Origin: Sorghum bicolor
Lineage: Eukaryota > Streptophyta > Magnoliopsida > Poales > Poaceae
Direction: 5' to 3'
DNA length: 64,000 nucleotides
Assembly (NCBI RefSeq): GCF_000003195.3
Contig: NC_012878.2
Span: 43,819,047 to 43,883,046, forward strand
Shown: positions 1 to 64,000 of the stretch, one piece after another
Layout: the number at the start of each line of letters is the position of its first letter
Numbering within the stretch: position 1 is the first letter of the stretch
The notes under the pieces: model-generated
What the model was told of the DNA's origin: nothing
Databases searched by the model: none
Seen by the model: the letters and a program-made list of their open reading frames with translations, nothing else
Made by a program: the position numbers and the translations under genes

Positions 1-82
1 CGGTAAGTTTCCTCGCATTTTCACACTTCCTTTTGCAAAGTGTTTTTGGTGTTGTCTAATTTCTCCGTGTTGGTCTTTGCAG

Positions 83-2877: not shown

Positions 2878-2913
2878 CGTCCACAGCTTCGCTTGAACTT
2901 GAGCCGGGGGGAG

Positions 2914-4110: not shown

Positions 4111-4318
4111 ATCCGGCCGCCAAAAGCTTGTGGATCTCCTCGCCAATGATCTTGCGTTTCTCCTCGTCGAAGCGACGCAGCCGCTGTTTCACTGGCTTGG
4201 AACCGGCTCGAATTTCCAAGGAGTTCTCGGCGACTTCCCTCGGTATGCCCGGCATGTCCGAGGGACTCCATGCAAACATGTCGGTGTTTGCACGGAGAAA
4301 GTCGACGAGCACGGCTTC

Positions 4319-7512: not shown

Positions 7513-7532
7513 GACCCCTACCTGGCGCGCCA
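7513..7532 (-). promoter_or_regulatory. Tat-1 primer-binding site
   Basis: Minus strand reads TGGCGCGCCAGGTAGGGGTC, two bases inside the 5' LTR end. The placement, and the TGGCGC... style seen in many grass gypsy elements, identify the tRNA primer site. I cannot name the tRNA with confidence. Confidence 0.75.
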
Positions 7533-7534
7533 AC

Positions 7535-8598: not shown

Positions 8599-8614
8599 CT
8601 ATCCATGGCGTCTA

Positions 8615-43013: not shown

Positions 43014-43534
43014 ATGAGTGGTTTTCAATTGCCGTCAAACTTCGTTGAAGATCCTGAGCAATTGTTGAGGAGAACTAGACGCCGTCAGGTTTCTCCTCAA
43101 AGGTTCATCTCAGAGACCGAACCGCTTGTGGAAGGAAGTCCCGCACCAGTTGTTGAGGCAGTCATGGCCCAAAAGACCATCACTGAGTTCTCGTCACCGT
43201 CAGCTGACTTTGTCGCTACGGGGTCGAACCTGAACTTGGGCGATGCGACCTTTGAGCTCAAGCCTGCACTGATCAACATGGTGCAAGCCAATCCATTCTG
43301 TGAGAAGCCACATGAGGATGCCAATGACCACCTTCAACACTTTTTGGAGGTGTGCAACACTTTCACCATCAAGAACGTCACGGCGGATGCCATTCGCCTT
43401 CGCCTTTTTCCATTTTCACTCTTGGGGAAGGCGAAGCAGTGGTTCTACGCCAACAAGAGCGTGGGAAGATTTCGAGCTTCCAGCAAGTGTCTGACGAGAT
43501 GATTCCTGAAGCATGAGAACGTCTCAATGAGTAC
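43014..43534 (+). pseudogene. Athila-A gag, first part
   Basis: ATG at 43014. Reads SGFQLPSNFVEDPEQLLRR, FELKPALINMVQANPFCEK, DANDHLQHFLEVCNTFTIK and DAIRLRLFPFSLLGKAKQWFY, the start of the Athila/gypsy gag capsid domain. The frame changes after KQWFYANK and the reading stops at 43502. Tat-2 is inserted at 43534; the domain resumes at 55942. Confidence 0.9.
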
Positions 43535-44258
43535 TGTTGATGCAAAAGCTGATATGCAAACACAAAGGGCTAATACCTGATTCAAACTTTAAGGCGTGCC
43601 AGCCGATTTGACCTTACAATTGACAAAGGTGGTAACTCAAACACATTGGTCCCGACAACAGCGATGCGCCCAGATGTCACGGCCAAGAGGAGCTCACGCA
43701 GAACTTGAGAACACGCCGAGTTCGACTCGACGAATTCTTAAGAACTCGTAGTAAAAGGAAAATAGGACGAAGTCGTCGAAAAGTAGATGCTAGAATGTGT
43801 AAAAACTTGTGTTTGATTGATTGATAGATACCTATTACATCACCACGGGGTCTACATTTATACCCTGCTTACAAGAGTTATGACCAGACACGTCTAGGAT
43901 TCGAATTCTAAATTAAACAGAATCTGTATACAAAACAAACTCTAATAACTATGGAAAGCATTAAATTATCTTCCACAACCGATCGGCACATCGCCATGAG
44001 TCGGTTGACAAACCCTGTGCCCTCTTCCATGATCATCGGCAAACCACTTTCCATGGCTATCGGCAGCCATCAGCACTGGTCATCGGCACGAATCCACCAC
44101 CACTCTTGGACTTGATCATATCCCGTCGTTCTTACATCGGCACCAACCCTCATCGGCAACGCTGCTGTAGACCAGTCTCCACTTTTCGACCTGCCGATCT
44201 ATACCTCAGTAAATCTAGATACGCACCCAGAGATACGTGTCCAAAAACGATGTCAACA
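43535..44258 (-). repeat. Tat-2 3' LTR
   Basis: 724 bp, TGTTGATGCAAAAGC to GATGTCAACA. The minus strand has the polypurine tract TTGGGGGGCATG next to it (44259-44270). Confidence 0.95.
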
Positions 44259-44656
44259 CATGCCCCCCAATTTTGGAGTATAAAATCATTAATGCTTCGA
44301 AATTCTCCCCAGTAATGACGACTTTCCGCAATTATCCCTTTCTGTTAGCAATTAATTACCAAATCCAAACAACCTCAGCCCGGTCTTACAGTAGGTACCT
44401 CGAATCTCCCAACTTCTCGAACTGAATCTCCCCAGAATGCGCACATCGGCAATATTACCGTTAGAGAAGACTGCCGATGAACCGACCAAGCGATCTTGCA
44501 TAGTAAGATATCTTCAAAACCATGATCGCTTGCTGTCAAATCACCTACGCAATCTCTTGATTACCGTGCGAACAGTTACCATATCCACCTGAACACCCTC
44601 GGATTTCACGGATGCGGCAAAGAGATAAGTCAGATTTGCCCCTGCCCTTTTTGCTC

Positions 44657-44664
44657 TATAAATA
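44657..44664 (+). promoter_or_regulatory. TATA box of Tat-2 antisense gene
   Basis: TATAAATA in TTGCTCTATAAATACTTCC, 162 bp before the ATG of exon 1 and on the strand opposite to gag-pol. A pyrimidine-rich acceptor TTTTCTCAG (44804-44812) just before the ATG suggests a possible 5' UTR intron. Confidence 0.7.
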
Positions 44665-44818
44665 CTTCCTTCTCCGGTGCTCTTCTTCCATCCTGTCATT
44701 CTACAACCCCAAACCCACCTTCCTGGTGGCGGCATCGTTCGAGAACTTCAAGCACTCCGGCAAGGGCTTCCTCCAACAATCTTCCAAGTCTCTGATTTTC
44801 TTGTTTTCTCAGGAAGAA

Positions 44819-47800
44819 ATGGCCATCAGCTTCGTCGTCCCTGAGGTTAACTCAACACCCCTCTGTCTTTTTTCCATATTCTTGTTGTACTCCTATTCCT
44901 CTGTGAATTTATTTACTGAGTACGTTTTCTTCTCTTTTTTCTGTTCTTTTGATCTTCAAACCCTTTAGGAATTGGCCGATAAAATCGTGATTCCTACCGA
45001 TCAACCCCACTTTCAGTGTCTTGGCCCATTGGGAAACCCAGATCCCACTGATCTGATAAATGCAGAGACAAATAGGATCCCTTTTAGAGCTTAGAATTTT
45101 TCCTTAGATCTGTGCAAAGATGCTTTCCGTTCCTGGCCCAGTTCCACCAAGGGATGGAAAGATTTGTTCCTGAGAATTGGCAACTCAAATGAAGTCCAAT
45201 GTGGTGAGCGGAAATTGGACCAATGCATTAGGCTATCCATTGCCGATGTGGAGAGAAACGAGTCGCTGCTGATAGCCGCTTCATACTTTTGGTCAGATAC
45301 CCTTAATGCTTTTGTATTCGGCCATGGTCCTGCTTCTCCTACTCTTGCCGATGTGCTTATGCTCACTGTCTTAGATATATCAACTGCCGATAACAGTCAT
45401 CTGTTTGATAATAAGCCTAGTTCTAAGGTAGAAACTCGCAGCATCGGCGGTTGGTCTAGGTACATTCAGAAGTACCGAAAAACAGGACCTGTTGGGGAAA
45501 GGGAACACACCATTTTTCTGAATATGTGGCTGGATAAATTTGTATTTTGTGGCCGATCGGCAGGACCAACTTTTGTTTATCTATCGGCAGCAGAGAAATT
45601 AGCCGGCGGCGATCATTTTCCCCTCGGCCGATATTTGTTAGGCTCTGTCTATCACCTTCTTCATCAAGTAGCTGAAAAGCTTTTCCTAGGCCAACCTATC
45701 GGCAACTTAGGGGGACCTTGGTGGTTCATCAATATGTGGCTCAGCGTTCATATGCATAAGCGTCTTGGATTCAATCTCTTCGCACAACGCTTTCCCAGAG
45801 ACATAGCCGAAGATCATGAACCGGACGAGGAAGAATCGGCAACTCGCTCCCCTTTGAACTACGGTGAGGCCGCCATAGTCTTACCTGGTACCGGTGGCAA
45901 TGAAGACCAGGTCAGCCGATTCTTCCAAACTCTCTATGAGGGTCTGGCCAAAGACCAGCAGGTATGGATGCCTTATGAGGATCCAGAAACTAGATTCCTA
46001 CTCACTTTCCATCCCTTTGATGATGCCCTCAACAAGGACCATGATATGATGATGGCAATTATTACCCCGAGAGCTATACTAGTGAACTTATTTAGCAGTG
46101 GGAAAACTTTCAGCGTCACCTACGAATTCTACAATCCATCGGCACTGGCTCGTCAACTGGCCTTTGGACAGCTGCCAATTGCACTCTGCTATGCCGATGT
46201 GGTGAAGCCAAGGGAGACCATAACTAGCAGCCTTGAGTGGATCAGAATAGCCCAACTCCCACCAAATGCCGATACGTCAGACATTGATCTATCGGCCTGG
46301 ATCACAGCTCTCTTCATTACTCAAGCATACAAACAGTGGTGGGAGGAGTGGAAAGAGCATCTGTTCTGCACATCGGCTCTTATATACCGTGGCATGATTG
46401 ACCCTAAGTATAAAGTCCCCAAGAACACTGTAAGTCTTTAACCGATGCTTCAATCCTTTCATTACTTTTACCCTTATCGGTAACTCACTTCTTCCCTTTT
46501 GAATAGGTTAACGATACACCACCAACAGTTAGCAGGAGTGGAAAGTCGATCGAGGTCCTTCCATCAGGCCTGATTTCTCTGATCGGCAACAATGCACCAA
46601 CCTTGGCAGCCCTAATGCACCGGAATGTGCGTTTCAAGAAGATAACCACCAGACGAGCAAAGACATCTCCATCGGTCACCGCTACTACCTTGGCACAAGC
46701 TTTCAAGGTAAATTTCTGATTTCCTCAATTTTTACTGATTCCATTCTATACTCACACAATTTTTTCAGGATACATCGGCCGCTATGGGAACCTCATCGGT
46801 AACTTTTACCGTTTCAACCAAAATTTCATCAATACTCTGTTACATTTGTACTTATGAAACTTTTGTTGTTGCATCAGCAAACTGGAGACCAGAAGTACCA
46901 AGATAAGTGCCGATACCCCCAGTCTAGTCAAGCTAAGAGAAAGGCCCCCACAAGCACTAAGATGCAGCCAAAACGCCAGAAAACAGCACCACCTTCTTCT
47001 CCTCCTCCAGTGTTGCCAATTCATGTAGAATCATCCCCTTCTTCACCAGAAATCCAGACGCAGCAAGCACTATCTCCTCCTCAACCAGCATCTCCTCAAC
47101 CAGTACTCCAGCTACAAGAAGCACCAGCCGATGTACCTGAACAGATTACTGATCCAGCAGATCCAATTATACCATCAGCAGTCTCTTCAGAACAGACAAG
47201 CACTACAACTCCTCAAGGTAAAGTACTGTCCATAACACCATTAACGATGAATTTTCTTCAGATTATCATCACCTTTATCATATCTTCGGTCGACGTCATA
47301 CCATCGGCAACTCCAGCCGATCAACCCGTGGTACCATCGGCATCAACCAGCCAGAGACGAGAAATAGCTCTAAAACAAGTAAGTTATCTGGTCTCCATTC
47401 TTTTCCACTAATATTTGATCACCAAATAACTTATCTTATTTTTATTTTCAGGAACAAGACTCCATGGATAGCTTATTCTCCTTCGCCATCGAGATTTCTG
47501 ATGATGAGGGCGAGGAAGCAAGCTCTTCCGAGGCAATAGGGGTTTCATCAGCAGAGATCAGAGCCAAATTGGAAGACCTACTAGCCTTGCTACACCAAGA
47601 CACTGCTCAATTGGTTGATGATTCTGATCCAGCCAAAGCTCAGTTCAAGGCTCTCCGCGGTCAAATTCCAGCCGACACCAAGGAGATTCTTTTCCAAGCT
47701 GCACACTTGGAAAGCCGTCAGCTCCAGTACCAAAAGGCTACCCAATGCCTTGCCGATAGAGCTACCCAGGCCCAGCTCTCAGAGGAGGTAATGCAAGTAA

Positions 47801-48147
47801 AGTGCCTCGCCGATGAGAAGGACAAAAGCATCGGCATTTTGCAATCCTCAAGAGATGAGTTAAAGCAAAAGATCTCGACCCTATTGGCAAAAAGGGAAGC
47901 CTTGCTGGCTGAGCTCAAACAAGTGGAGGAGGCTTTGTCCCAAGCTCAGCAAGAAGAAAGCCAGTTGCTTGAGATGATCAAGACTCTTCAGCAAGAACGA
48001 AACATCCAGGCTTGCAAGGTGTTGCAGATGAAGAAGAAGCTGAGGCCAGTGGAGGGCTCTGCCAATGAAGATATCCGGGAGATAGAAGAAGCCAACCAAA
48101 TCCGCCTGCACGCCATATCGGCTATCCAAGCTCTGTTGAACTCGTGA
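44819..48147 (+). pseudogene. Tat-2 antisense six-exon gene: plant-mobile-domain-like protein with coiled-coil C-terminus
   Basis: Exons by splice sites and reading frame: 44819-44845, 44969-46429, 46507-46707, 46769-46798, 46878-47378, 47452-48147. All five introns (61-123 bp) start GT, end AG and are phase 0. The spliced frame would be about 971 codons, with one TAG at 45092-45094 in exon 2. Exon 2 has features of the plant mobile domain (LLIAASYFWSDTLNAF, EHTIFLNMWLDKFVF, LGGPWWFINMWLSVHMHKR, LTFHPFDDALN). Exon 5 is Pro/Ser/Gln-rich with a basic patch (KRKAPTSTKMQPKRQK). Exon 6 begins acidic, then a long coiled coil (LLAKREALLAELKQVEEAL). The product resembles no enzyme I can name. It converges on integrase, which ends at 48300. 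Antisense ORFs are known in Tat elements; role unknown. Confidence 0.85.
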
Positions 48148-48299
48148 GCTCTTCATGGGCAACTTGTCTTGTTCTGTTTTTTAGAAAAACTTTTAATCAC
48201 CCTAGTCTAGCCGATAGGACTGTTATCGGCACTTTTGAAAACATTATGCCCCAGATACATTTCATTCAGCCGATAGGAGTGTTATCGACACTTAAACTC

Positions 48300-49480
48300 T
48301 TATGCATCAACCCACATGCTTGGGTAATACTTCTTTAAATATTTTCCATTTAAAGCTCTAGGAAATTCAACTCCTTCGAGAGTCTCCAAAATATAAGCAT
48401 TACTAGGAGCAGACCGATTTATCCGATAAGGACCTTCCCAATTAGGAGACCATTTGCCAAACTTTGAACTTTTAGTCCCAATCGGTAAAATTAGTTTCCA
48501 CACCAAATCTCCATCGGCAAACTCCTTAGCTTTTACTTTTTTATCATACCACCTAGCGACTCTCTTTTTATTTTCTTCTATACTTATCAAAGCCCTCAAC
48601 CGATGCCCTACCAAATCGTCTAACTCATCTTTCATCAAAGTAGCATAGTCATCGGCAGCCAACTGGTCTTGAAAAGATAATCGTCTAGATCCGGTCTTAA
48701 TTTCCCATGGCAATACTGCATCGTGCCCATACACCAACTGATAAGGTGAGACTTTGGTCGACCCATGACACGACATCCGATATGACCATAAAGCTTCACT
48801 CAACAATGTATGCCACCTCTTAGGATTTTCTTCAATCTTTCGTTTTATGAGCTTAATAATTTCTTTGTTAGATGCCTCGGCTTGCCCATTAGCTTGAGCA
48901 TAATAAGGGGACGAATTCAACATTTTAATTCCCATACCGATTGCAAATTCATCAAACTCCCCTGATGTGAACATGGTACCTTGGTCGGTAGTGATTGTGT
49001 GAGGAATACCAAATCGGTAAACAATATGCTCTTTCACAAAATCAATCATGTTAGCCGATGTTACTTTCTTCAAAGGAATTGCTTCAACCCACTTGGTAAA
49101 ATAATTTGTGGCAACTAAAATGAACTTATGACCTTTGCTTGATGGTGGGTAAATCTGGCCGATTAGATCAATAGCCCATCCTCGGAACGGCCATGGCTTA
49201 ATAATAGGATTCATGGCCGATGTGGGTGCTCTCTGAATATTGTCAAATTTCTGACATCCTTGACATCCTTTGAAATATTTAAAACAATCCTCGAGTATAG
49301 TTGGCCAATAGTATCCGTTTCTTCTAATCATCCATTTCATCTTAAAAGCCGACTGATGTGCTCCACATACTCCCTCATGGATCCACCCATTAAACTTTTA
49401 GCTTCATCATTATTCAAGCACCTAAGTAGAACTCCATCTATTGTTCGATAATATAACTCTTCTCCGAGGAGTACTATTTG
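48300..49480 (-). pseudogene. Tat-2 integrase
   Basis: Open part 48300-49340 (346 codons). End of the zinc region (YFKGCQGCQKF), catalytic Asp (WAIDLIGQIY), catalytic Asp (TTDQGTMFTSGEF), catalytic Glu (GQAEASNKEIIKL) and C-terminal domain (WSPNWEGPYRIN, NGKYLKKYYPSM). The His part of the zinc region (HEGVCGAHQSAF) lies upstream at about 49345-49385 after a frame break with a stop. This is the best-preserved pol domain of the element. The stop is 153 bp from the end of the antisense gene. Confidence 0.92.
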
Positions 49481-49485
49481 GTATC

Positions 49486-50093
49486 CTAAAACCTGACGCG
49501 TCTCTCAACCTTTTTAGATGGATCTGTCAAATAATCAATGATCTCATTTCTCCAATCATCGGCACTGATTGCCGATAACGCGTTTAATATGGGCTGATAT
49601 CCCGAGGCATGCTGAGCCAACCGATTAGCCTCCTCATTATGTAATCGAGGAACATGCTCTAGTCGGAAATCCTTGAATTTCTTCAATAGTTGCATACTTT
49701 TTCATAATAGGTTATCAAGACCTCGCTTTGGCATTCATAAATTCCAGCCAACTGATTTATAACAAGCATAGAATCACCGAAGATTTCAACATCATCAGCA
49801 TGAACCTCTTTTAACAATTCCAACCCTTTGATCAAAGCTTGATATTCAGCCTGATTATTTGTTGACGTGGCAACAACCGGCAAAAAGAACTCATACTTTT
49901 TTCCCTGAGGAGAAACTAATACTATACCGATTCCTGCCCCCCGGTCACACGTAGATCCATCAAAGAAGAGCGTCCAAGGAACAATTTCCAAAGTCCCCAC
50001 TACACCACAATGCTGAGTCACAAAATCGGCCATAATCTGCCCTTTAACTGCCTTAGCCGATTCGTAACGTAGATCAAATTCCGACAGTGCCAA
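49486..50093 (-). pseudogene. Tat-2 archaeal-type RNase H
   Basis: 49683-50093 reads WTLFFDGSTCDRGAGIGIVL (Asp), NNQAEYQALIKGLELLKE (Glu) and DVEIFGDSMLVINQL (Asp). After a frame change near 49690 it ends with RLEHVPRLHNEEANRLAQHASG. Second RNase H of the Tat lineage. Confidence 0.9.
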
Positions 50094-50096
50094 AAT

Positions 50097-51325
50097 TCAT
50101 TTGCCGATTCTACCACTCATGATCGGCATAGATAAAATGTATAAGACTACATCATCTTTGCATATAACAGTGCATTCGGCCGATAGCAAATAATGTCTCA
50201 ACTTAACACATGAAAAGTATAAGCACAAACATAACTTTTCAATTGCCGAATACCTGGTCTCAGCATCAATCATTCTTCTACTTAAATAATAAATCACACG
50301 GTCCTTCCCTTCAAATTCATGAATCAAAGCCGAACCAATGACCATTCCATCGGTAGACAAATATAATTTGAAAGGTTGTCCTTGCTGAGGTGGAATTAGA
50401 ACTAGAGGATTTGTCAGATAATTCTTGATTTCGTCCAATGCCGATTGTTGCTCCTTTCCCCATACAAACTCTTGATCGGCTTTTAACTTAAGTAAAGGAC
50501 TAAAAGCACGAATCTTACCAGACAAGTTAGATATAAATCGCCTGATAAAATTTATCTTACCGATCAGAGATTGAAGTTCAGTTTTGTTGGTGGTAGCAAC
50601 TGTTTTGTTGATGGCATCAATAGATCTCCTACTAATTTCAATCCCTCTCTGATGCACCATGAAACCAAGAAACTGCCCCGCCGATACGCCAAATGCACAT
50701 TTGTTAGGATTCATTTTCAAGCCATGTTTTCTTGTACATTCCAACACCTTTCGCAGATCGGCAAGATGCCTTGTAAACTCTCCAGATTTAACCACCACAT
50801 CATCAATATAGATTTCCACTATCTTGCCAATGAACTCATGAAAGATAAAATTCATAGCTCTCTGATAGGTAGCACCAGCATTTTTCAAGCCAAAGGTCAT
50901 GAATATCCATTCAAATAACCCAACATGACCAGGACATCTAAATGCAGTCTTCAGAATATCTTCTTCGGCCATGAATATCTGATTATATCCTGCATTGCCA
51001 TCCATAAAGCTAATAATCCGATGTCCAGCCGCAGCATCAACCAGCAAATAGGCAACTGGCATTGGATAACCATCCATCGGTGTAGCTTTGTTAAGATTCC
51101 TGAAATCAATACAGACACGAAGCTTCCCATTTTTCTTGTAAACTGGAACGACATTGGAAATCCACTCGGCATATCGACATTGCCGAATAAATTTAGCTTC
51201 AATAAGTTTAGTTATTTCGGCCTTGATATCGGGAAGAATATTAGGATTGCATCGGCGGGCTGGCTGCTGATGTGGCCAAAATCCAAATTTGATAGGTAAC
51301 CGATGTTCAACGATCGATCGGTCTT
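50097..51325 (-). pseudogene. Tat-2 reverse transcriptase and pol RNase H
   Basis: The main open part 50097-51077 shows ISFMDGNAGYNQIFMAEED, FIFHEFIGKIVEIYIDDVVVKSG (catalytic box YIDD, near 50799-50813), KLKADQEFVWGKEQQSALDEIK and RNase H (PFKLYLSTDGMVIGSAL, DRVIYYLSRRM, ETRYSAIEKLCLCLYFS). Upstream, to about 51325, the fingers region (KNGKLRVCIDFRNLNKATP) is open in the same frame. Fairly well preserved. Confidence 0.92.
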
Positions 51326-51572
51326 AACCAGGCATCTCAGTATAATCCCAAGCAAAGCAATCTTTATATTCCTTTAACAAATCGGTTAATTGTTGTTTAC
51401 ACTCAGAATCTAACTTAGCACTAATAAACGTAGGTCTTGGCCTATCACCATTACCTATATCTACTTCTACCAAATCATCGGCCGATGTAAACCCCTGGCC
51501 TAATTTTCCATCATCGGCGAACCTATCTATTAAAACTCTTCGTCAGAACCGACTGCTTGGATCGGTGGAATT

Positions 51573-52442
51573 TCATAATCGGCGAATTTCATAATCGGCA
51601 ACTTTGAGAAAATCTTTCTCCCAAACTTCCCCTGAGATGCATCTGGTCTTCTCATAAGTATCTGCTTTTGCCGATGTGATGACATATGAAGAATCTCCTG
51701 GGACAATCTTGATTTTGTCACCTACCCACTGAACCAAACATTGGTGCATAGTAGATGGGATGCAACAATTGGCATGAATCCAATCTCTCCCCAACAGTAG
51801 ATTATAAGCACCCTTTCCACTGATGACGAAGAAAGTCGTCGGCAAGGTTTTGCTGCCGATGGTCAACTCGACACATATGGCTCCTTTGACTGGAGACACA
51901 TTCCCTTCAAAGTCCTTCAGCATCATGTCGGTCTTGGTCAAATCTTGATCTCCTTTCCTATGTTTCCGATAAACTGCGTACGACATAATATTGATAGCAG
52001 CCCCACTGACAAGTATCTTGGTCATCGGCTGTCCATCAACCCTACCTTTGACAAATAGAGCTTTAAGATGCTGTCTTTCATTGTTGGCAGGCTTTTCAAA
52101 GATAGCCGTCATGGGATCTAGAGCCAACTGAGCTATCTGGTCGGAAAAATCCACCTCCTCGTCATCACTGGACGGCGCAAGGAACTCCATCGGCAACATA
52201 AACACCATATTGACACCTGCCGATGGCCCTCTTCCTTTAGGATCTGGCTTGTGCTGATCTTCAGTCTTAGCAGAATTCCCTTCTTTACTCAACTCTTCTC
52301 GTCTTTCACGCTGTAGCCTTCTTTTCTGTGTCCTAGTCAGCCCCTCTGGACACCATGGAGGAAGTTGTGGCTGCTTTACCGATTGGCGACGACCTTCCTT
52401 TGACTCCACTAGTATTAGCATCTCTGCAAAATATGAACTCAT
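51573..52442 (-). pseudogene. Tat-2 aspartic protease region
   Basis: 289 codons. A Gln/Pro/Lys-rich start is followed by ANNERQHLKALFVKGRVDG and the active-site region ILVSGAAINIMSYAVYRK (near 51990-52012), where the family has Asp-Gly-Gly; the catalytic Asp is absent. The fold continues with CVELTIGSKTLPTTFFV and YNLLLGRDWIHANCCIPSTMHQ. Probably inactive. Confidence 0.87.
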
Positions 52443-52883
52443 CGGGAACTCGTGCGTCTACCATCTCCTCAAGCTCCTCTTGGTTCCTGGGAAAATACCT
52501 GACACGGTCACCAAGCCTGTCATGCACACTGAGCCTGCCCCCAACCGATCATGAAACGAGGCTCTTCCCCTAATCGGCCCATCAAAACGCCGATCATTGT
52601 TCTGATACTGTCGATTTGGTCTATCATACCAATCATAGCCATTACATTCAGGGCAGTCTCTAACAGCCGGCAGCTTGATGTTTTGCTCCCAGCAATGGAT
52701 GAAAAACGGGCAGTTCCAGTGATCTTTATGCCTATTCCATTCTTGTCGGCGCCTTTCTTCTTCCCTACAACGATCCTCCTGTTGGCGCCGATACTGATAT
52801 TCACGTTGCTGCTAGGTCTACCGACGCCTTCTATGAGTAATCACAATGCCGGATCGGGGAAGCCTTCCTGAGCTGGTTCCTTC

Positions 52884-53465
52884 CTAGATCAAACCCTTGC
52901 CTTTAGCATCATCGGCAGTAATCTGGTGCTGAGGATCTACCGATGCGCTTCTTTCAGCTGCCTCTGACGTCAAGACCTTAGTCTTCCCCTTAGCATCCAA
53001 CATATTTGTATGGAAAGGATGCTGGTCAATCTTCATCGGCTTTTGAGTTTTGGAACTATCGAACTTAATTCTTCCAGATTCTATAGCCGACTGTAGCTGT
53101 TGTCTGAAAACCTTGCACTCATTTGTGCTGTGAGATGTTGAAGTATGCCATTTGCAGTATTTCATCTTCTTTAATTCCTCCGCCGATGGAATCACATGAT
53201 TGGGTGACAACTTAATTTGCCTTTCTTGAAGTAGAAATTCAAATATCCTACCGGCTTTGGTGATGTCAAATGCAAACTTCTCTGGCTCTTTATGCCCAAA
53301 AGAGCAAGACATCGGCTTCTTATTTTTTACCCACCCTGCCAAGCCGATGACTGGTTCTTCATCAGAGTCTGAGCTTGTCGCTTCATTGACAAATGGCACC
53401 TTTTTGTTCCATGCCCTCTTTGGTTCGAAGGCCTTGATATCTTGGTCTGAGATCCTCTGCACCAA
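52884..53465 (-). pseudogene. Tat-2 gag, nucleocapsid part
   Basis: 193 codons with a Cys/His motif CKWHTSTSHSTNECKVFRQQL. The remainder is a charged linker toward protease. Joined to the capsid part by a frame with a stop near 53490. Confidence 0.75.
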
Positions 53466-54077
53466 ATGACTCAGACTCTCAAACTCCTATGAAGCATACT
53501 TGTCTCTGATATGAGGCAATAATCCCTGGAAAGCCAAATCGGCTAGCTGCCGATCATCCAGAACCAGACTATAGCATTTATTTTTAACCTCTCGCAACCT
53601 TTGCACAAAGCTTTCAACCGATTCAACATTGTGTTGCTTCAACCTGACTAAATCGGTAATCTTCTTCTCATGAACTCAAGAAAAGAAATATTTGTGGAAT
53701 TGCTTCTCTATATCGTCCCAAGTAATCACTGAATTAGGAGGTAATGAAATAAACCAAGTAAAGGCCGATCCACACAAAGATGACGAGAACAAGTGAACCC
53801 TTAACTCATCTCTGTTAGCAGCTTCTCCACACTGGATGATGAACCTCTTAACATGTTCCATAGTCGATGTATCATCCTGCCCAGAAAACTTGGTGAAATC
53901 TGGTACCTTGTTCCGATTTGGAAGTGGAATTAAGTCATATGCAGGAGGATACGGTGTCCGATAAGAGTAAGTGTTGACTTTGGGTTTTATCCCAAATTGG
54001 TCTCTCATCACTTCAGCTATCTTATCAGCCCAATAAGCATCGGCATCCTGCCGATGAGGTGGTTGTGGATCTGGCAC
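53466..54077 (-). pseudogene. Tat-2 gag, capsid domain
   Basis: 53676-54077 shows the Retrotrans_gag core (KVPDFTKFSGQDDTSTMEHVKRF, LRVHLFSSSLCGSAFTWFISLPPNSV, WDDIEKQFHKYF). It continues after a stop (TGA near 53676) with LRLKQHNVESVESFVQRLREVK-like sequence to about 53480. Confidence 0.87.
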
Positions 54078-55184
54078 CTACTGATAAGCTTCCACGTGTC
54101 TCTGAGGTGCACGATCTCCATGGAACATTGGATTAACCATCGTCTGCTGACCACCAAGTTGCTGGCCAAGATTCATCGGCTGGTTGATCAAGCCTTGACT
54201 CCAAAATCCAGGTTGCACTGGCCCCTGTTGAAACCCCACAGCCTGATGATTCTGCTGAGGCATCTGTGGAAAGAGAAACTGCCATGTCCATCCATTGTTA
54301 ACATTCATCAGCGTAGGTCCTACCGATGACTGGTAATTGGGCATCATCATTGAATTGACATACCCTGGCTGTGTCATAAACCTTTGCTGCGTCGGCATTG
54401 GATCTACCGATGCATTAGGCATCTAGAACGTTGGCACTTGAGAATTCCCAGTGAAAGGTCTTGCAGTAGTAGTTGTAGAATACTAGGGATTCTGAGTCAT
54501 CGGCGAGCTTGGGGACGCCGAAGCCATAGGAGCCTTGCCTGTCATGTTAGCCGCTTGAGACGTCCAAGAGCTGTTTGGCATAAACTCTGGGGGCATACCA
54601 TATCCCCACCAATTAGGAGGAACAGACACTGACATTTCCGATGCCAATAATCCGTAGCAAGTTTGACTTGTCCCTCCGATGTTGATGGATTGGTCGTCAT
54701 CGGTGTGGATTGCGCATTAGTCATCCCTAATGTACTTGGAGGGGAAGTAACTTCTGCACTCGCAACAGCCATAGTAGTCGATGGAGTCGTAACCACCGAT
54801 GACCCTGGCTGATGATAGGCAGGACCCACATAAGATGGTGGTACTTGTCCTTCTTTGAAAGTTCTAGCCATAGCATTGAAAACCGTATTGGACAATACAC
54901 CGGATTGATTGATTAGAGCACGGTTGACAGCACTATCAACCATCTCTTGCAATTTACCAGGATTGGCTTCAAAAGTTATTTGCCGAGGTGTCAGTAATGC
55001 TTCCTTTTGGATCACCTCGCCACTCCTGTTGATACTGAAGGATTTCAAGCATAGCTGCTTGTAGTCCTCCATGGCTTTTGCCACAGCTTGCTTCTGCTCA
55101 TCTCTGAGATTGGCTTCCGTCACGGGGATGACGTTCTCCAAGTCGAAATCAGTGTTCGACATGTTGATCTTGATCTTGAATCTC
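54078..55184 (-). pseudogene. Tat-2 gag, N-terminal region
   Basis: Begins near 55161 (protein SNTDFDLENVIPVTEANLRDE), shortly after the primer site, and runs through a Thr/Ser/Pro-rich region to about 54650. Frame changes occur there; 54078-54422 continues as a Gln/Met/Pro-rich stretch (PMNLGQQLGGQQTMVNPMFHG). Low-complexity N-termini are usual for this group; no catalytic function. Confidence 0.75.
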
Positions 55185-55203
55185 GGTCCCACTGGGCGTG
55201 CCA
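55185..55203 (-). promoter_or_regulatory. Tat-2 primer-binding site
   Basis: Minus strand TGGCACGCCCAGTGGGACC, 7 bp inside the LTR end. The tRNA is not identified with certainty. Confidence 0.75.
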
Positions 55204-55210
55204 AAAGATG

Positions 55211-55936
55211 TGTTGATGCAAAAGCTGATCCGCAAACACAAAGGGCTAATACCCGATTCAAACTTTAAGGCGTGCCAGCCGATTTGACCTTACAATCGAC
55301 AAAGGTGGTAACTCGAACACTTTGGTCCCGACAACAGCGATGCACCCGGATGTCACGGCCAAGAGGAGCTCACGTGGAACTTGAGAACACGCCGAGTTCG
55401 ACTCGATGAATTCTTAAGAACTCGTAGTAAAAGGAAAATATGACGAAGTCATCGAAAAGTAGATGCTAGAATATGTGTAAAAACCTGTGTTTGATTGATT
55501 GATAGATACCTATTACATCACCACGGGGTCTACATTTATACCCTGCTTACAAGAGTTATGACCAGACATGTCTAGAATTCAAATTCTAAATTAAACGAAA
55601 TCCGTATACAAAACAAACTCTAATAACTATGGAAAGCATTAAATTATCTTCCACAACCGATCGGCACATCGCCATGAATCGGTTGACAAACCCTACGCCC
55701 TCTTCCATGATCATCGGCAAACCACTTTCCATGGCTATCGGCAGCCATCAGCACTAGTCATCGACACGAATCCACCACCACTCTTGGACTTGGTCATATC
55801 CCGTCGTTCTTACATCGGCACCAACCCTCATCGGCAACTCTGCTATAGACCAGTCTCCACTTTTCCGCTTGCCGATCTATACCTCAGTAACTCCACATAC
55901 GCACCTAGAGATATGTGTCCAAAAATGGTGTCAACA
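55211..55936 (-). repeat. Tat-2 5' LTR
   Basis: 726 bp partner of 43535-44258. Contains about eight ATCGGC/GCCGAT hexamers. Confidence 0.95.
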
Positions 55937-56619
55937 AGTACATTCGCGCCTGTCCTCATCATGGGATAGACGAATGGCTCATTATTCAAGGTTTCTACCA
56001 TAGGCTGACTAGCGTGGCCCGTAGTCACCTTGATGCCTCAGCTGGAGGGACATTCTTGCAGAAAAATATCAAGGATGCCAAGGACCTCATTGAAAAGATG
56101 GTCATCAACCAAGGATGGAATGAGGAGCGCCTCCAAACCAAGAAGAGAGGTGTCCATGCCCTCAATGAGGTGGACATGCTCTCTGCCAAGATGGACCTCC
56201 TTATGAAGAAAATAGAGGAATCTTCCTCTAAAAAGGGAATTGAGGCCATCCAGACCCTTGCCACTGTTCGTGCTGTGGAAACTAATCCATGGTGCAAGGT
56301 ATGCAGAGGAGATGATCACTCGGGCAATAACTGCCCTGAGACCCAGGAGGAGGTGAACTACATCAACAACAACTTCAACAACGGGAACCGGCCCCAACAA
56401 CAACAATGGAGTTCACACCCCTTCTACCAAGGCCAAGGTATGGGTTACAATAATAATTCTAGTAATTCCTTTGGTAACCAACCTTCTCTTAGAGATCTTG
56501 TGCTAGGCCAAACTAAAATTAATGATAGTATCAATAAGAGAATTATGGCTAATGACAAGATCCTAGAAAGCATTAGTGAGAAAATGGCAGCTTTAATTTT
56601 GCCAATAAGAATCAATTGA
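55937..56619 (+). pseudogene. Athila-A gag, second part
   Basis: Continues the capsid domain after the Tat-2 target site: FYHRLTSVARSHLDASAGGTFL, NIKDAKDLIEKMVINQGWNEER and MDLLMKKIEESS. Then comes a zinc knuckle (WCKVCRGDDHSGNNCPE, CCHC complete) and an Asn/Gln-rich tail. Ends at TGA 56617-56619, with another stop six bases later, where the family reads through into protease. Confidence 0.9.
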
Positions 56620-56625
56620 GCTTAA

Positions 56626-57411
56626 ATGTTAGAAACACAGTTAGCTCAATTAGCAGCAGCTATCCCATCATATGAGCAAGGTAGGATCCTAGGGAAACCT
56701 GAGGACCCGCTTGAGTCCGTTAAAATAGTCTCTACGAGGTATGGTAAGCCTCTGGTCCGTTCAAACTGGGGATATCTGCTTGATCCCCCATTCATCACAA
56801 AGAAGGACGACCCAGACATGCCAACCATCACTTGCGAGATCAGACCACAGCTCTTCCACAACGTCTTCTGCGACCTTGGATCAAGCGTCAACATCATGTC
56901 CAAGGTAATTTATGAAAATCTATTAGGGTGTGTTTTGCTCCCTACCTTTATGAGATTGCAGATGGCGGACCAAACCATTCGGTTTCCGGAGGGAGTCGCT
57001 AAGGACATCTTGTTTAAAATCCAAGATAAATATGCCGCTGCCAATTTCGTCATCCTTGACATGGGGACAAACATCGACGTCCCCATCATCATCCTGGGAC
57101 GGCCATTCCTAAACACGGTGAATGCCATTATCTACGTCGGGTCTGGCCAGATCCATCTACAGTTCGCAGGTAAGAGGATCAAATGTCCTTTCAATGGCTA
57201 TAAAACTAACACGCAGCCGAAGGACACGAAATCGGAGGAGAAACCTCGTAGCAAATCCCGCCGGAGGTACAATAAAGGCAAGTCGGCCAGAAAGGCCAAA
57301 AAGAAGGAGGAACCCGCCAAGGAAATAGAACATTCCAAAAAGGAATGGCGGGAAAAGGAGATGCCTGCACGGTCCCCGTCTCTAGGACCGACCGAGGCGT
57401 CCATAGAATGA
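56626..57411 (+). pseudogene. Athila-A aspartic protease
   Basis: Same frame as gag after two stops. Reads LETQLAQLAAAIPSYEQGR, PPFITKKDDPDMPTITCEI, active site FCDLGSSVNIMSK (Asp present), LQMADQTIRFPEGVAKDI and IIILGRPFLNTVNAIIYVGSG, then a Lys/Arg-rich tail to the stop at 57411. This is a complete protease relative of the NA-1 and NA-2 fragments, but no RT follows. Confidence 0.9.
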
Positions 57412-58486
57412 AACCCGACCGAGAGGTCCTCCTCTATGGACCTAAAACATGGAGCCCTCCGCTGACCTGGTATGTTAGTAGTTATCTCATATTTATTTTC
57501 TGCACTTAAACTTTGCTTTTCAATTTCATGCTTACTAAAAAAATTGCATTCTCTTTCAACGAAATAACTTAGACATAAACAATAAAACTTGAGAAGATTG
57601 ATTAGAGAAAAGGTGAGCTGGTGGGGCCACCATTGCCAGGTCGGCCAACCAGGCTTTGTGGGTCCACCACCTCTCCCTCCACTCTAGCTAGAAGTAGGAA
57701 TCCTAGGAATGGCATTGGATACCCTGGGGCTCCCAAGGGCAGGTCAACCGACCTAGCCTTGGTGCCACCAAGCATCCGCTAACTCCCAATGATGATGTCA
57801 AAGGATTCCATGCTCAACACACTAGCCAGAATTCGAGGCGAGATGGTCCAATGCTCATGACTTTAGCTTAGGATGCTACTTTAAGCATTTTGATGCTTTA
57901 GGGAACATTCCAATAGCCAAAGCTAGCATAGGGAGCAACAATGCAAGCTTAAGGGTCCCCATGGTCCATGGGAATCACTTTGGTGCTTGTCCCCTCTTTT
58001 GCTTTCTCCTTTTCTCTTTCACCAAACACTAAAAATGGGAATCCGAGGAAACCAGCAGCAACTTTAGATCAGCACCACCACCATCTTTATCAGACAACCC
58101 AACATAGCGTGACTAAAGTGGTGGGGGCAAAAGACTTGGTCGACCGACCATGATTTTGATCCCAATTGGTGACTTTATGCAAGCACGAGGCTAGATTCCC
58201 TGTCCAAAGTTGACAGCATGCTTCAAAGGGGGTGAACCCAGGTTGGCCGACCTGCCCTATGCGGGGTCTTGCCATACCCTTTCACCCCTATAAATAGCCC
58301 CTCAATGTGAGCTCAATACCGCACCAACACCAGCAAAATCATCTCAAGCTCACTTGGCCTTCTCTCTTCTCTTTAGTGTTCCAAGCCTTCTCAAGCTTAG
58401 TAGTAGCTATAAACCCAAAAACATTTCCCTTCTGCATAGTAGTATAGTAGGAAGCTTGGTCTTGTCTATTCACTTGTGAAGCTAGC
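57412..58486 (+). promoter_or_regulatory. Athila-A spacer with internal promoter upstream of ATHILA ORF
   Basis: No ORF. The TATA box TATAAATA at 58289-58296 sits in TTTCACCCCTATAAATAGC, very like the LTR promoter phrase CTCACCCCTATATAAGG. It also holds palindromic motifs like those of the LTR U3: CAGGTCGGCCAACC (57637), CAGGTCAACCGACCT (57740), GGTCGACCGACC (58138) and GGTTGGCCGACC (58240). I infer a separate promoter for the downstream ORF. Confidence 0.6.
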
Positions 58487-59533
58487 ATGAAGAAATTCAT
58501 CACCGCCAAGCTCACCAAGAAGAGGCATGGTGAGGGCTCATCCTCGAGCTCTCACCACTCCGAGGGGAGGAGCCACGAAAGAATGAAGGAGGAACAACTG
58601 CACACACTTGTTCCCTTCACTCCCGCTAATAGGATACTGGAGCCCGAAGACAACCCCTTGCACACTCATGAAGAGGTAGGGAAGCTCTACACCCTTCGCA
58701 CTTGCAGCTTCAACCACACCACTGTCTTCGACGAGCAACTCCTGGACCAATCAGGTATGTGCACCGAGTTTCCTACTATCTTTTATGCCATTGGTTGGGG
58801 TGGATTTTGGCAAGTTCCTAAACTTGGTATAAAAGTACTCTCTCAAGAATTTCTTGCCACACTAAAATCAAACGATACGGGAGTAACTTTTCACATGTTC
58901 AACAAAGATTACAATTTAACTTGGAGTGAACTAAGTACATGTCTAGGCTTTGATCAAGATTGTGAGCTAGACATAGATCATGCTTTGTAAAATTTTGACT
59001 TAGCTAAATTCTAGAAGTTGATTACTTGCTCCAATAATCTCTCTGTTCGTAGACCTGTCCAAAACCATAACCCAACCTTAAGATTCATGTACATTTGGAT
59101 CATAGTCACTCTCTTCCCTGGTCCTAGCATGGAAGATATAGGCTGTAAAGAATTGTAAATCCTTTATGCCATGGTAAACAAAATCAAATTTTCACCTATC
59201 AAGTGGTTAGTACCTTTCTGGATCTCCTCCATTGCACCTAGCATGCCCCTATGCTTTACTTCACTTATCACTAGAATTGCTGAATCCATGGGTTTGCTTG
59301 AAACAACAGAAGTAGAGTACATCCAGGATGATAGATCTATTTTAGGTGAGCAAATGTTTAGGAGTGCTAATTTGATTAAGAGAGATCTCAGAAATGGCCT
59401 TAAAATGATTTATGGGAACCATTCCATTGAGGTCATTCTACCCAATGAGGACCTTTGGTTGTATAATGCTTCATCACTAACCCTGAGGCTAGGAAGAGAG
59501 AATAGAGCCAACCCTGTTGCATGGATAGAATGA
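58487..59533 (+). pseudogene. Athila-A ATHILA ORF-1-type protein (env position)
   Basis: ATG at 58487, 191 bp after the TATA box. N-terminus KKFITAKLTKKRHGEGSSSS, then TEFPTIFYAIGWGGFWQVPKLG and FHMFNKDYNLTWSELSTCLGF. Stops TAA 58988, TAG near 59012 and TAA near 59156 interrupt the frame, which continues at 59171 with KIKFSPIKWLVPFW, CFTSLITRIAESMGLLE and ending RENRANPVAWIE. This is the family known as Arabidopsis retrotransposon ORF-1 (ATHILA), encoded downstream of pol in Athila elements. Function unknown. Residual sequence in another frame (59521-59665) resembles the Arg/Thr-rich tail. Confidence 0.8.
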
Positions 59534-59665
59534 CGAGAGCACGATCTCGTGCTGCTCAACGGCAAGCTGGTCCCTCTTATGCTGCACCACAAGGGGAGGA
59601 TGAGGTGAGCTCCATGCATACGGAAACACCTCATCACTCCAGGACGTCTTTAGCAACGCGCACCC

Positions 59666-61319
59666 TGTTGGGTATTCTTAACATCATTACCAAAAGTAGA
59701 CTAAGTTCTCTAAATCTAGCAACGGTGCCAAAAATGCCAAACCTATCCCTCACACCACTTAAGCCAAGTTGTCATCCCCAGCATGATATAAGAGACGCGG
59801 TATTGAAATATGCAATTGCTCTTCTAAATAAATAATGAATTGGATCTGCAAGCGCACAGATTAATACCGATGTAGCATTTTAACCGGGAAGTATTCCAGG
59901 TATCGTTATTTATATTTTTACCACTGGGAAGGGATTAGCGATCATCACTATTGATTACAGAATAGAATATGAGATTGAGCATCTATCATTGCATGTATAA
60001 TTGAGAACATTATATCTAACTCTTCATACAGGGATAAGTGTCACATAAAAGATATATGAAATAATAATAGTGACAAGGATAACTAATCTGATCTAGCCAC
60101 ATAATAAATATGATAAGCACCTCAATTAGATACTCTAGAAAGTGATTAGCATGGTATTAGAACGAACTACAAGAATATTCCCTAAGTTATTCTTAACTAT
60201 ATAGTCTAGCATTATCATAATTAGTGCAAGCATACTTAGCAATCATTATGAGACAAGACTACGCCCATGCATAGTGATATTAGCAAGGAATATGAGAAAC
60301 ATAGCAATCACTCCCCTCTAATAATGTTGCTCTGCCAGCCCAATACACGAGAGGGGGACTACATAAGAATCAATGAAGCTGTCACTATCACAAACCACCC
60401 CACGATCTGGCATATTGGGTACAATCGCAGATAAATACGGTATAAGCACCACGCCACACAATATCTATCATTTACCCATGGATCCGATGGATAAACGCTA
60501 TACGATCCTAAGCATGTATATAGATCCAATCTAACTAAGCCAAGTACATAACTATGATAAACTAAGAACAATATAATCTTGAATATAAGCAAGTAGAGCA
60601 AAGTCATAAGCAATATATTGAAGTAGAACAAAGTCATATTCATAATATTGAAGAACAAAGATAATTAGAAAGCAATTAGAAGCACAATCAGAGAATTACC
60701 AAGAATCCTCTCGACAGATCCGGAAACCAATCGAAGATTGACTCCTTCTAGTTCTAATCCTATGTAGCTATGCTAATCTAGATGTCTAATTGATGTGGTG
60801 GCTCTAATCTTGATCAGAGGCTTCTTCTCCCTTGATGGAACAATGAATTAGGGTTGAGAGGCTCCCTCCTCCAGGGGCCAGGGGGTCTGGTTTTATAGTC
60901 CCTCCAAGTGAATATGGGCCATTGGATCAAACCGACATAGATTGTATGGTTTAGATTCATCCTTTAGGTCGGTGGAGATATCCCGCAAAGCAGAGTCCTG
61001 ATTAGACTCAGGGGCAGGGCGGGCGCCCTGACCAACTGGGCGGCCGCCCAGGGTCAGGCCCCGTTTCGCCTCCGCTTCGGTCTCGTGGCTTCTGGAGTCT
61101 TCTAGATGTAAGATAATTGCGCAGCACGTTAATATCTTTACGTAATCCCGACATGTGGGCCTTTCTTCCATATTTCCTGATAACCCCCTGCAGAAATAGA
61201 CAAACACCAAAACTCGTGGAATTCTGTCAGATAAAACCCTAAGTCTAGATCTTGATTTCATTTAGATCCTTTTCTTTATTTATTTGATAATTAAATTTGA
61301 TACTTAAGGACCGTCAACA
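59666..61319 (-). repeat. NA-2 3' LTR
   Basis: 1654 bp, TGTTGGGTATTC to GACCGTCAACA. From about 59850 it aligns with the NA-1 LTR (GATCTGCAAGCGCACAG..., TTTATATTTTTACCACTGGG), but it has about 170 bp more at the left end and a different middle (60000-60700). It contains GCAACGGTGCCA at 59719-59730, which looks like a primer-site complement inside the LTR. TATA-like TATAAAAC on the minus strand near 60889-60897. Confidence 0.78.
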
Positions 61320-63582
61320 AACTTCCCCAAGCTTACCTCTTGCTCGTCCCTGAGCAAGGATAGACTCAGCTATGGATCATAAGTTGTTTCAATATCTTTA
61401 AAAATTTGACGGTACACATGCTTTTAAATAAGATCTCATCTCTGAGTTAGAGTAAACTGTTAAGACTTAAAACTTACTTACTTTACCTTCACCATGTGAC
61501 TTGTAACCGTCACTTCTATCTTGAGTGGTTAAAAGATAGAACAGTCTAGTCAAGTGCCATGTCTCTTATTCTTGATCAGCTATAGCTCTGGGGTTTTTGC
61601 AGATTTTCAAATAAAACTCAGAGATTCCTTGTATGACTCTCTCAAATCTCTCTTTTGTGATATTTCTGGATCCTTACCAAGGCAGTGATGGTATTTGCCT
61701 TCTCTCCATATATGTAGTATTTGTGGTATGAGGCATAGTGACATTGCCTTCTCTCTCACCCTACTCTAATAAGGCTTTAATATCTGGAGCTCATAGGTGG
61801 GAGATAAAGTATACATACTTACAAGACATTTATTGCATAGTCAAACCATGGATCCAAAGAAACAAATCAATAAGCCAAATCAAGATGTGCATGTATGGCG
61901 AATGAATGGTGTATGGTGATAACGGTGATAACAATGGTGGTGGAAGTCTAATTCTACTTTGCTCATTGACGGAATACATACCTTCCTTGCTTTTTGAAAC
62001 TTCATGAGGAGAATGAGATGCTCTTATTTTTCTTTTCTCTCAGGTGGGTATCTTGCACCCCTAATTCTACTGTCGGACACTTGTCCATTTTTACCTCTCG
62101 TCTCACTTTTCTTTTCTTTCGAGGTTCCGAGCACTTGCTCCTTTTTATTTCCTCGTATATATTATATATATATATATATATTTTTAGAGCACTCATCTCT
62201 TGAGATAATATAGCAAGTGGTAGTAATAAGATAACTTGAGCATTTATTTCACAAGGGAAAACAGAAATATTTTTGGTTATTCTCTCCCGGGTTAGGAGTA
62301 GAATATTTTTGGATGATTCTGGAGATGGAATGGGTGGGATATATGTGGATGGTACTTCCGGAGTAGAAGTAGCATATATGAGTGAACGTGCAAGTGAAAT
62401 CTTGATTTAACCACATGACAAGTTCCTAAGGGTCTACACAGCTTGACCACACTCAATGCTCATAAGCAGTAAATAGTAAATGTGTGGCTCAAAGTCTAGC
62501 AAGCATGCATATATGGCTGTGGTAGGAATTTAAACTCTCATCATACAGGAACTCATCATGCAACATTTTAAAGATTTTTAAAGATAAAATTCTCCAGAAT
62601 TCTAGCATCTCTAGGAACAGATAAACAGCAGCTCAACCTTCCCATATCATATCCGTTAACAACTTAGACTTCAGATCAAGTTTTCATCCCACAAGTTTAG
62701 GTCTAGAGCAAGCTTTAAATTATAACAGTTATATCTAAACTTGAGAGAGAACTTAAAATTTGCAAATTAGGCAGAGCAACTATTTATCATATCCATGCTT
62801 AAGTTTTATTTGATACAGATTAGCATAGCCACTTTATTTATTTATTAAACACACTAAGCAAAAGACATATATATATAAGCATAAAATCTTTATTTGGTTT
62901 TTCCTAGTTTATGTATTTTAATATTCTAATATAATATAAGTATAAAGATTGATAGATAGAAATACTTATCGAGATAAATGGGGGTGCTCTCCCCCAAGCT
63001 GAATTTTGACGTAATTTCCCTTGATGTAGCTAGCAAGTGGCAGAGGTGTATTTGAAAGTCAGCAGTATTCTGACAGCGATTAGAATGTCCTCCGTCTGCT
63101 AGTCTTCTTGATTCTTAAATTCTGTGGAGCTCAAATAGACAACAAAGCTTGTGGAACTGATTAAGTGTTAGCATAAATATCTAGCCTTTATCATGTTGAG
63201 ACTCCTTAATAAATATTACTCCCTGTTTTTTATATTTTTGTTTTTATAAAGCAGAAAAAATATTTATTTTATTTTTATGCCACCACAGTGAATGTACTTA
63301 TGGGTTTTATGCCACTCGTCTACTCACATGGGGCTTACTGTTTTTCACATTTTTATTTTCTTTTTAAGATAGTATGAACATGATTAACTAAGTAAACTAT
63401 TTGAAATAATTGAAAGGGAAAGGATAACTACCAAGTTTACCTCTTGGCAAGGCGTTCGGTGTTTTTAAGTCCTCCGAACGGGACTCTCCAATTTCTTAAT
63501 CGTCCTGAGGTTCATTGGGTGGCGAAGTCGGTACTTCCGGCAGCGCCTCCTCTTCTTGTATAGTTATCTTCATTTTCCATAC
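61320..63582 (-). other. NA-2 3' internal region, noncoding, conserved with NA-1
   Basis: Aligns with 16412-18748 through long identical stretches (for example CTTGCTCGTCCCTGAGCAAGG at 61336, GGGTCTACACAGCTTGACCAC near 62429). Differences are mostly substitutions and length changes of the TA/T tract at 62155-62185. No credible ORF. Confidence 0.75.
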
Positions 63583-63987
63583 CTAACTCGGTGCTTCAAT
63601 CTCCTCTGGATAATTCTGTTTAAACTCAACGTCTTCTGACCTTACAACTTCCCCTTCATAGTCTGCCCATCCGTCCTTGATGATCTGCCTCCTCTGGTTG
63701 CGGTTGCGTCTCTTTCTGACCTGCTTAGATTCTTCAATGATATAGTTAGGGTCAGTAAAATAACGGCGTACCTTCTCTGAGGGGAAGTGCATATGGACTT
63801 CTCCAGTTCCAATGTAGATAATTGCTTTAACGGTGCTGAGGAACGGTCTTCCAAGGATGATGGGTGGATCATACTCATCTTTTCCCATGTCAATAACTTG
63901 AAAGTCTGTGTAGACAAAGTGATCGTCTATTTTGACTGGGACATCAGTAACTATTCCTTTAACTTCTCGAAATGTCTGATCTGCCAT
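63583..63987 (-). pseudogene. NA-2 protease C-terminal part (extends past window)
   Basis: Minus-strand reading begins ADQTFREVKGIVTDVPVKI, then FQVIDMGKDEYDPPIILGRPFL and STVKAIIYIGTGEVHMHFP, followed by an Arg-rich tail and an acidic end to the stop at 63583. It matches the Athila protease C-terminal half and contains the block deleted in NA-1. The active-site Asp lies beyond the window. Confidence 0.78.
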
Positions 63988-64000
63988 CTGGAGCTGAATG

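Follow-up and report, generated by a model that had tools for sequence, protein, structure and literature searches.

A conserved hexamer dispersed along a Tat/Ogre-like retrotransposon of Sorghum bicolor: a putative self-recognition tag

A Tat/Ogre-like long terminal repeat (LTR) retrotransposon of Sorghum bicolor carries the short word ATCGGC, or its complement GCCGAT, along nearly its entire length. The element occupies positions 43535-55936 of the 64,000-nucleotide stretch of contig NC_012878.2 that was analysed, referred to here as the window. The sequence is almost certainly a selected double-stranded DNA word. What it is selected for is a more balanced question: with about an even chance it is a self-recognition tag, read in a VANC-like way by a protein with a plant mobile domain (PMD) that the element encodes antisense to gag-pol. 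That protein would bind the tag and oppose silencing, as VANC proteins do for VANDAL transposons.

An earlier note on this DNA, made from the letters alone, had put the number of copies at roughly 90-100 in 12.4 kb, and exact counting gives 90, of which 49 are on the + and 41 on the - strand (38:37 without both LTRs). The chance expectation of about six given there has to be lowered to about four: a dinucleotide Markov model predicts 4.2 copies, or 2.9 once the motif sites are masked, and 200 dinucleotide-preserving shuffles of the element average 4.3 with a maximum of 11. Correction for dinucleotide content might have brought the observed/expected ratio close to 1, as the note allowed; the ratio is ~21. 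An expectation of 84 calculated from 5-mers is circular, because those 5-mers are part of the motif. Elsewhere in the window, 51.6 kb in all, there are six copies, the closest at 34834, 8.7 kb to the left of the element, and there are none in 55937-64000. As the motif is nearly absent outside and missing from the right flank, the signal ends at the element borders, in agreement with the note. Within the element, copies are found in both LTRs, in antisense and gag-pol open reading frames (ORFs) and in spacers, again as claimed, and 56 of the 90 are in ORFs; the exception is the ORF at 54542-55264.

The sites are spaced in a Poisson-like manner (coefficient of variation 1.03, dispersion index 1.02). 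The fuller form of the word is (C)ATCGG(C/T)(A)(A/G), with a preceding C at 44 of 90 sites, a following A at 49 and then A or G at 64. ATCGGT is likewise enriched in the element (31 vs 4.2 expected); ATCAGC (16 vs 8.3), ATTGGC (13 vs 8.3) and TTCGGC (9 vs 4.2) lead the remaining 17 one-letter variants. Beyond the motif itself, site contexts share no more than the preceding base and the two that follow, which argues that longer repeats were not copied. Tandem duplication is an unlikely source, given the Poisson-like spacing and the single short motif-containing array (51568-51599) reported by Tandem Repeats Finder. Neighbouring motif sites within 20 bp are mostly inverted, 10 of 12 in the window copy with the right-hand LTR excluded and 108 of 148 in related stretches, where the pairs are non-independent; inverted close pairs could reflect a dimeric reader.

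Could codon use or a protein motif account for the word? The note held that neither would suffice, and three kinds of evidence bear this out: the ORFs, the noncoding DNA and the conservation of sites described below. Synonymous shuffling of the 11 ORFs, done 500 times without altering protein or codon usage, gives 10.7 +/- 2.8 sites (maximum 19) vs the 56 observed, and the 4.0 kb of noncoding DNA has 34 sites vs 1.04 expected. Taken singly, six ORFs have counts that none of 500 shuffles reaches; the observed count is reached in 15 of 500 for the ORF at 47419, 30 for the second RNase H, 7 for that at 53676, 71 for that at 54078 and all 500 for the siteless ORF at 54542. Codon usage and base composition are thus unlikely sources by the synonymous and dinucleotide shuffles and by the conservation backgrounds. 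Dipeptide counts in PMD homologues were set aside, as they are too confounded by protein constraint.

The word clusters strongly throughout the genome. In 709 Mb (846 contigs), the pattern CATCGGCA-N(0-30)-ATCGGC has 8,580 + 9,042 = 17,622 matches, vs 38 + 34 = 72 for the reversed pattern. Ten relatives on one contig (C1), 78.2-79.3% identical to the window copy, were taken from the listed pattern matches and were hence selected for word content. Each has 89-105 motif sites in its two stretches, flanks included, but as the word itself led to these relatives, the totals are no evidence of family-wide density; the evidence for that is the genome-wide count and the retention of individual sites. 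Of 796 site-by-relative cells, 576 (72%) keep the window motif, vs 28927 of 110117 (26%) for other hexamers, 586 of 2557 for NNCGNN and 105 of 274 for ATCGGT. With overlaps excluded, the mean fraction kept is 0.722 for the motif (82 sites) and 0.247 for all other hexamers (10288); it is 0.221 for 245 NNCGNN, 0.239 for 1701 hexamers with four G/C and 0.265 for 118 CG anagrams. In 10000 resamplings of each of the all-other, NNCGNN and four-G/C backgrounds, none reaches 0.722. The note had named as damaging a finding that sites are no better conserved than their flanks; the retention of 72% vs 25-26% for other hexamers does not bear this out, and column identity is 0.89-0.94 inside the motif vs 0.61-0.87 in the 15 columns on each side. 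At fourfold third codon positions whose first two bases are intact, 524 of 610 are kept in the motif vs 4602 of 7909 elsewhere.

Sites are also gained and lost. Each relative has 49-62 aligned sites in common with the window copy and 30-36 at other aligned places, and at the 44 distinct relative-only places the window letters are often one step away from the word (nine ATCGGT and four each of ATCGAC, ATCAGC and ATTGGC). The sites thus turn over while their number hardly changes. One of the eight sites in the 3' LTR is gone from the 5' LTR through a single substitution, and the 500-bp bin from 54535, which has no sites in the window copy, has a mean of 2.8 in the ten relatives.

An origin by biased mutation, gene conversion or the spread of a small repeat is scarcely credible in view of these data. 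The word does occur in one short tandem array and the relatives do share ancestry, but the sites have unrelated contexts and Poisson-like spacing, fourfold positions are better kept inside the motif, and shuffles fall far short of the observed count.

What kind of molecule is being read? The ten relatives, turned to the window orientation (five of the ten copies are reversed in the genome), have a strand split of 542:468. Retention is similar in coding (382 of 540) and noncoding (194 of 256) DNA. This balance of strands, the equal conservation of all six letters and the likeness of coding to noncoding sites point most probably to a reader of double-stranded DNA. It is very improbable that the word acts through DNA or methylation without a dedicated reader, for example in nucleosome placement or protection from methylation. 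Every site has a CG, and 121 of the 414 CpG in the element are inside ATCGGC/T, but retention of other CG hexamers and of CG anagrams is not above the average, or scarcely so, and all six letters are conserved alike.

A different protein of the element, the integrase or Gag, might read the word in packaging, nuclear return or self-targeted integration. This too is improbable, if less so, even though sites cover nearly the whole element, which encodes both proteins. RNA packaging would favour one strand and is an unlikely explanation given the balance reported above (38:37 without the LTRs, 542:468 in relatives). The integrase and the gag ORF at 53676 show little change at codon positions 1 and 2. 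Nor does a retroelement contig with reverse transcriptase (RT) and RNase H domains, found by an RT search (BMWJ01000029.1), have a strong hexamer in its 4.7 kb, where the top z score is 4.7. That contig is filed under Streptomyces clavifer and is probably plant contamination; it is a Ty3/gypsy-type retrotransposon fragment whose RT is 47% identical to that of the window element.

The element is filed as a Tat-clade, Ogre-like member of Ty3/gypsy, placed by its domains and layout (Table 1) rather than by an RT lineage tree. Its LTRs have TG...CA termini and are 94.75% identical, a target site duplication is present and the integrase follows the RT. Two marks of the Tat clade are present here, a second RNase H and, lying between pol and the 3' LTR, a PMD gene in antisense orientation (for PMD, PMC6317226).

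Table 1. Features of the Tat/Ogre-like element and of a second Tat-clade element (Tat-1). Positions are those of the window; L030 is the 10 kb to its left.
Feature	Position	Strand	Evidence or remarks	ATCGGC/GCCGAT sites
Tat/Ogre-like LTR retrotransposon	43535-55936	gag-pol on -	LTR repeats, domains	90
5' LTR (gag-pol sense)	55211-55936	-	TG...CA ends	7
3' LTR (gag-pol sense)	43535-44258	-		8
Target site duplication AGTAC, 5 bp	43530-43534; partner 55937-55941			
Antisense ORF with plant mobile domain	45095-46441	+	PF10536, E 6e-16	16
Antisense ORF	46803-47411	+	no Pfam family; may be a further exon	5
Antisense ORF	47419-48147	+	no Pfam family; resembles a coiled coil on visual inspection	4
Integrase	48300-49397	-	PF00665, PF17921	5
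Second RNase H	49683-50096	-	RVT_3 PF13456, RNase_H PF00075	2
Reverse transcriptase and RNase H	50097-51323	-	PF00078, PF17919, PF17917	8
Protease region	51573-52457	-	gag-asp_proteas 9.6e-05, under curated cut-off	7
gag	53676-54077	-	PF03732, 1.2e-05	3
ORF at gag start, 723 bp	54542-55264	-		0
Tat-1, Retand-like	1-8604; continues left as L030:4686-10000	-	RT, RNase H, gag domains	
LTR of Tat-1	8067-8604	-	partner L030:4686-5223, 93.3%	
Antisense Transposase_28 gene of Tat-1	L030:5953-6762		7.1e-17	

The antisense gene is a candidate for the reader of the word, and the chances that it is the reader are about equal to the chances that it is not. Divergence at codon positions 1, 2 and 3 is 0.191/0.126/0.464 in the PMD ORF, which is a coding pattern on the + strand, 0.249/0.224/0.418 in the ORF at 46803-47411 and 0.222/0.140/0.460 in that at 47419-48147. 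Although the PMD gene is under constraint, integrase and RT diverge more slowly. In a Pfam scan, run without a VANC-specific profile or sequence, the antisense gene matches PMD alone. In Arabidopsis, PMD proteins have been linked to the silencing of transposons (PMC5418596, PMC7156037, PMC9899485). Searches of other collections add little: tblastn of the PMD finds no match in plasmids, the PMD profile has none at E 1 among PDB chains, and nothing was confirmed for family DNA in viral contigs or for the PMD in the genome contigs collection.

If the PMD protein is the reader, the selected word ATCGGC, with its fuller form, would serve as a self-recognition tag along the whole element, at which a protein reading double-stranded DNA would bind many sites together. 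The density of the word, and not a single site, would tell the family from the rest of the genome. The most likely job of the PMD protein, on the analogy of VANC and VANDAL, would be to keep the chromatin of the element open or transcribed. Many sites over 12 kb suit density recognition, as is proposed for VANC21 (PMC5735166). That anti-silencing is the outcome of reading is a tentative suggestion, somewhat doubtful in itself.

Alternatively, a host transcription factor or chromatin protein may read the word and be exploited for transcription or for resistance to silencing, with the PMD protein otherwise employed. The element gains from selection for the word no matter which protein is the reader, and DNA binding by the PMD has no structural support here. 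MAIN/MAIL1, moreover, affect genes with the promoter motif 'DOWN', perhaps via an unknown transcription factor (PMC9899485). A host reader is nevertheless unlikely, as a promoter would seem to need few sites, not 90 through coding DNA, and few copies of the word are found elsewhere in the window. A host repressor is an unlikely cause of the word in particular, since its conservation indicates that it is beneficial to the element.

Does a Tat-clade element with a different antisense gene have a different word? The window contains a second such element, Tat-1, with an RT 36% identical to that of the first and an antisense gene of the Transposase_28 family. The word of Tat-1 is CTCGA(G), and it is conserved in part. 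CTCGAG occurs 29 times vs a shuffle mean of 4.2 and CTCGA/TCGAG 95 times vs 28.6; five ORFs hold 10 CTCGAG vs 2.0 in synonymous shuffles, and noncoding DNA 19 vs 1.5. Tat-1 has one ATCGGC and the first element one CTCGAG. Conservation was assessed in one neighbouring inverted relative, found by position and 78.9% identical, so that the numbers are small and come from one pair: CTCGA/TCGAG is kept in 37 of 53 places vs 400 of 1215 for CG 5-mers, CTCGAG in 10 of 13 and (C/G)TCGA(C/G) in 17 of 29 vs 86 of 320 for NNCGNN, and TCGA in 38 of 63 vs 139 of 345 for other NCGN. In one 2.5-kb antisense piece of Tat-1 (L030 from 7186), CTCGAG is not the top hexamer. The finding of a different enriched word beside a different antisense gene is counted in favour of tag reading. 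A 2.5-kb piece of another Transposase_28 locus (L064; G000 C1:35272000-35274499) has CCGAGC 16 times vs 1.7 expected; 11 of these 16 are within a 70-bp tandem array, which makes this a hint only. The array (1606-1859 of that piece) is rich in AGTCCCCGAGC, the same 11-mer is found outside it at 2028 and 2376, and the arrangement looks like that of VANDAL type.

PMD loci elsewhere in this genome served as controls. The best 30 of 180 matches were taken, with 117 of 4028 candidates scored; each locus is 3.5-4.1 kb (one, L057, includes 1803 masked letters), and all are distant from the window PMD, which has tblastn matches in four of the 30 at 22-28% identity. Their strongest hexamers are simple or GC-rich repeats, e.g. 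AAATTT (13 vs 2.0, L050), CGCCGA (11 vs 0.9, L039) and CCTGCA (14 vs 2.6, L043). Two longer PMD stretches have top z scores of 6.6 and 5.8; one of them, L062, has a MULE (Mutator-like element) transposase match at 4.2e-19, and the other, L061, no more than a MuDR match that falls short of its cut-off. In 6-kb segments elsewhere in the window, once the two elements and any simple or tandem repeats are set aside, the top z is 7.8 (CACCAC, 11 vs 1.5).

Several of these results weigh against reading by the PMD protein or against the strength of the case as a whole. Apart from one repeat-like case, none of the 30 distant PMD loci or the two longer stretches has a dispersed word of this strength. 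In that case, L054, CACCGG occurs 17 times vs 1.7 (z 9.3, close to the lowest z, 9.8, among five pieces of 2.5 kb from the window element); it is tentatively read as tandem-repeat sequence. A Tat family that has a PMD gene but another word did not come to light, though no search aimed at one was made. The AlphaFold model of the PMD protein, with a mean predicted local distance difference test (pLDDT) score of 54.4 at first and 82.6 from a more diverse alignment, has in the latter form no Foldseek match in PDB or BFVD at E 0.001, and there is thus no structural pointer to DNA binding. Because the relatives share ancestry and were chosen for carrying the word, the conservation is in effect one deep comparison with non-independent cells. 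Noncoding divergence in alignable parts, motif excluded, is 0.216, lower than the 0.31-0.46 of third codon positions, which implies further constraints or alignment bias there too. CTCGAG pairs are weakly clustered genome-wide (10,194 vs 7,397 for the reversed control), and the word of Tat-1 is by this measure much less exclusive. As a separate observation, CACCGG is also found in short tandem repeats of the window with CACCGGACGC, at 27046-27237 and 34032-34060.

How does the word compare with known systems? The likeness to VANC and VANDAL proposed in the earlier note stands in part. A short family-specific word at high density, an extra gene that diverges faster, and related families with different words are features of both. 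VANDAL words are reported mainly from noncoding tandem repeats of one orientation (PMC5735166, PMC10398659), whereas here the word is dispersed, on both strands and in coding as well as noncoding DNA. VANDALs are Arabidopsis Mutator-like DNA transposons; the present element has LTRs, RT, RNase H and integrase, and its antisense protein is of the PMD type. Bacterial DNA uptake sequences are also short words that run through genes on both strands as a mark of self, but these serve DNA import and have no relation to transposons. MAIN/MAIL1 offer another parallel, being PMD proteins with links both to the silencing of transposons and to a word found in promoters (PMC7156037, PMC9899485); DOWN, which reads CATGCAGTTT in the promoter of MORC1, does not resemble ATCGGC, however, and its direct recognition is presented only as a possibility.

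The closest counterparts are the antisense ORFs of the Tat clade, namely Grande gene23, RIRE2, Retand TRP28 and Ogre PMD, which have the same place and orientation between pol and the 3' LTR. In one survey, 57% of Ogre elements have PMD and 23% of Retand elements have Transposase_28 (PMC6317226), TRP28 occurs in 97% of Retand clusters with recent activity and has predicted DNA binding (PMC11963269), and the function of these genes is called unknown (PMC7264820). A dispersed target word, measured here, is not mentioned in the excerpts of this literature that were at hand, and the accessible open-licence literature yielded no account of a word that is both dispersed and conserved in LTR retrotransposons. 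A conserved element-wide word is a concrete candidate target for such antisense genes, be they in Grande, RIRE2, Retand or Ogre elements. A wider possibility, which we consider speculative, is that Tat-clade families each carry their own element-wide word, which extends into coding exons, and their own antisense reader, PMD in Ogre-like and Transposase_28 in Retand-like elements, with recognition by density and anti-silencing as the outcome. If true, a self-recognition code would explain the retention of Tat-clade antisense genes. Should the antisense protein prove to be the reader, a superimposed DNA code can be written into coding regions themselves, and sequence-specific self-recognition has arisen not in VANDAL DNA transposons alone but in LTR retrotransposons too.

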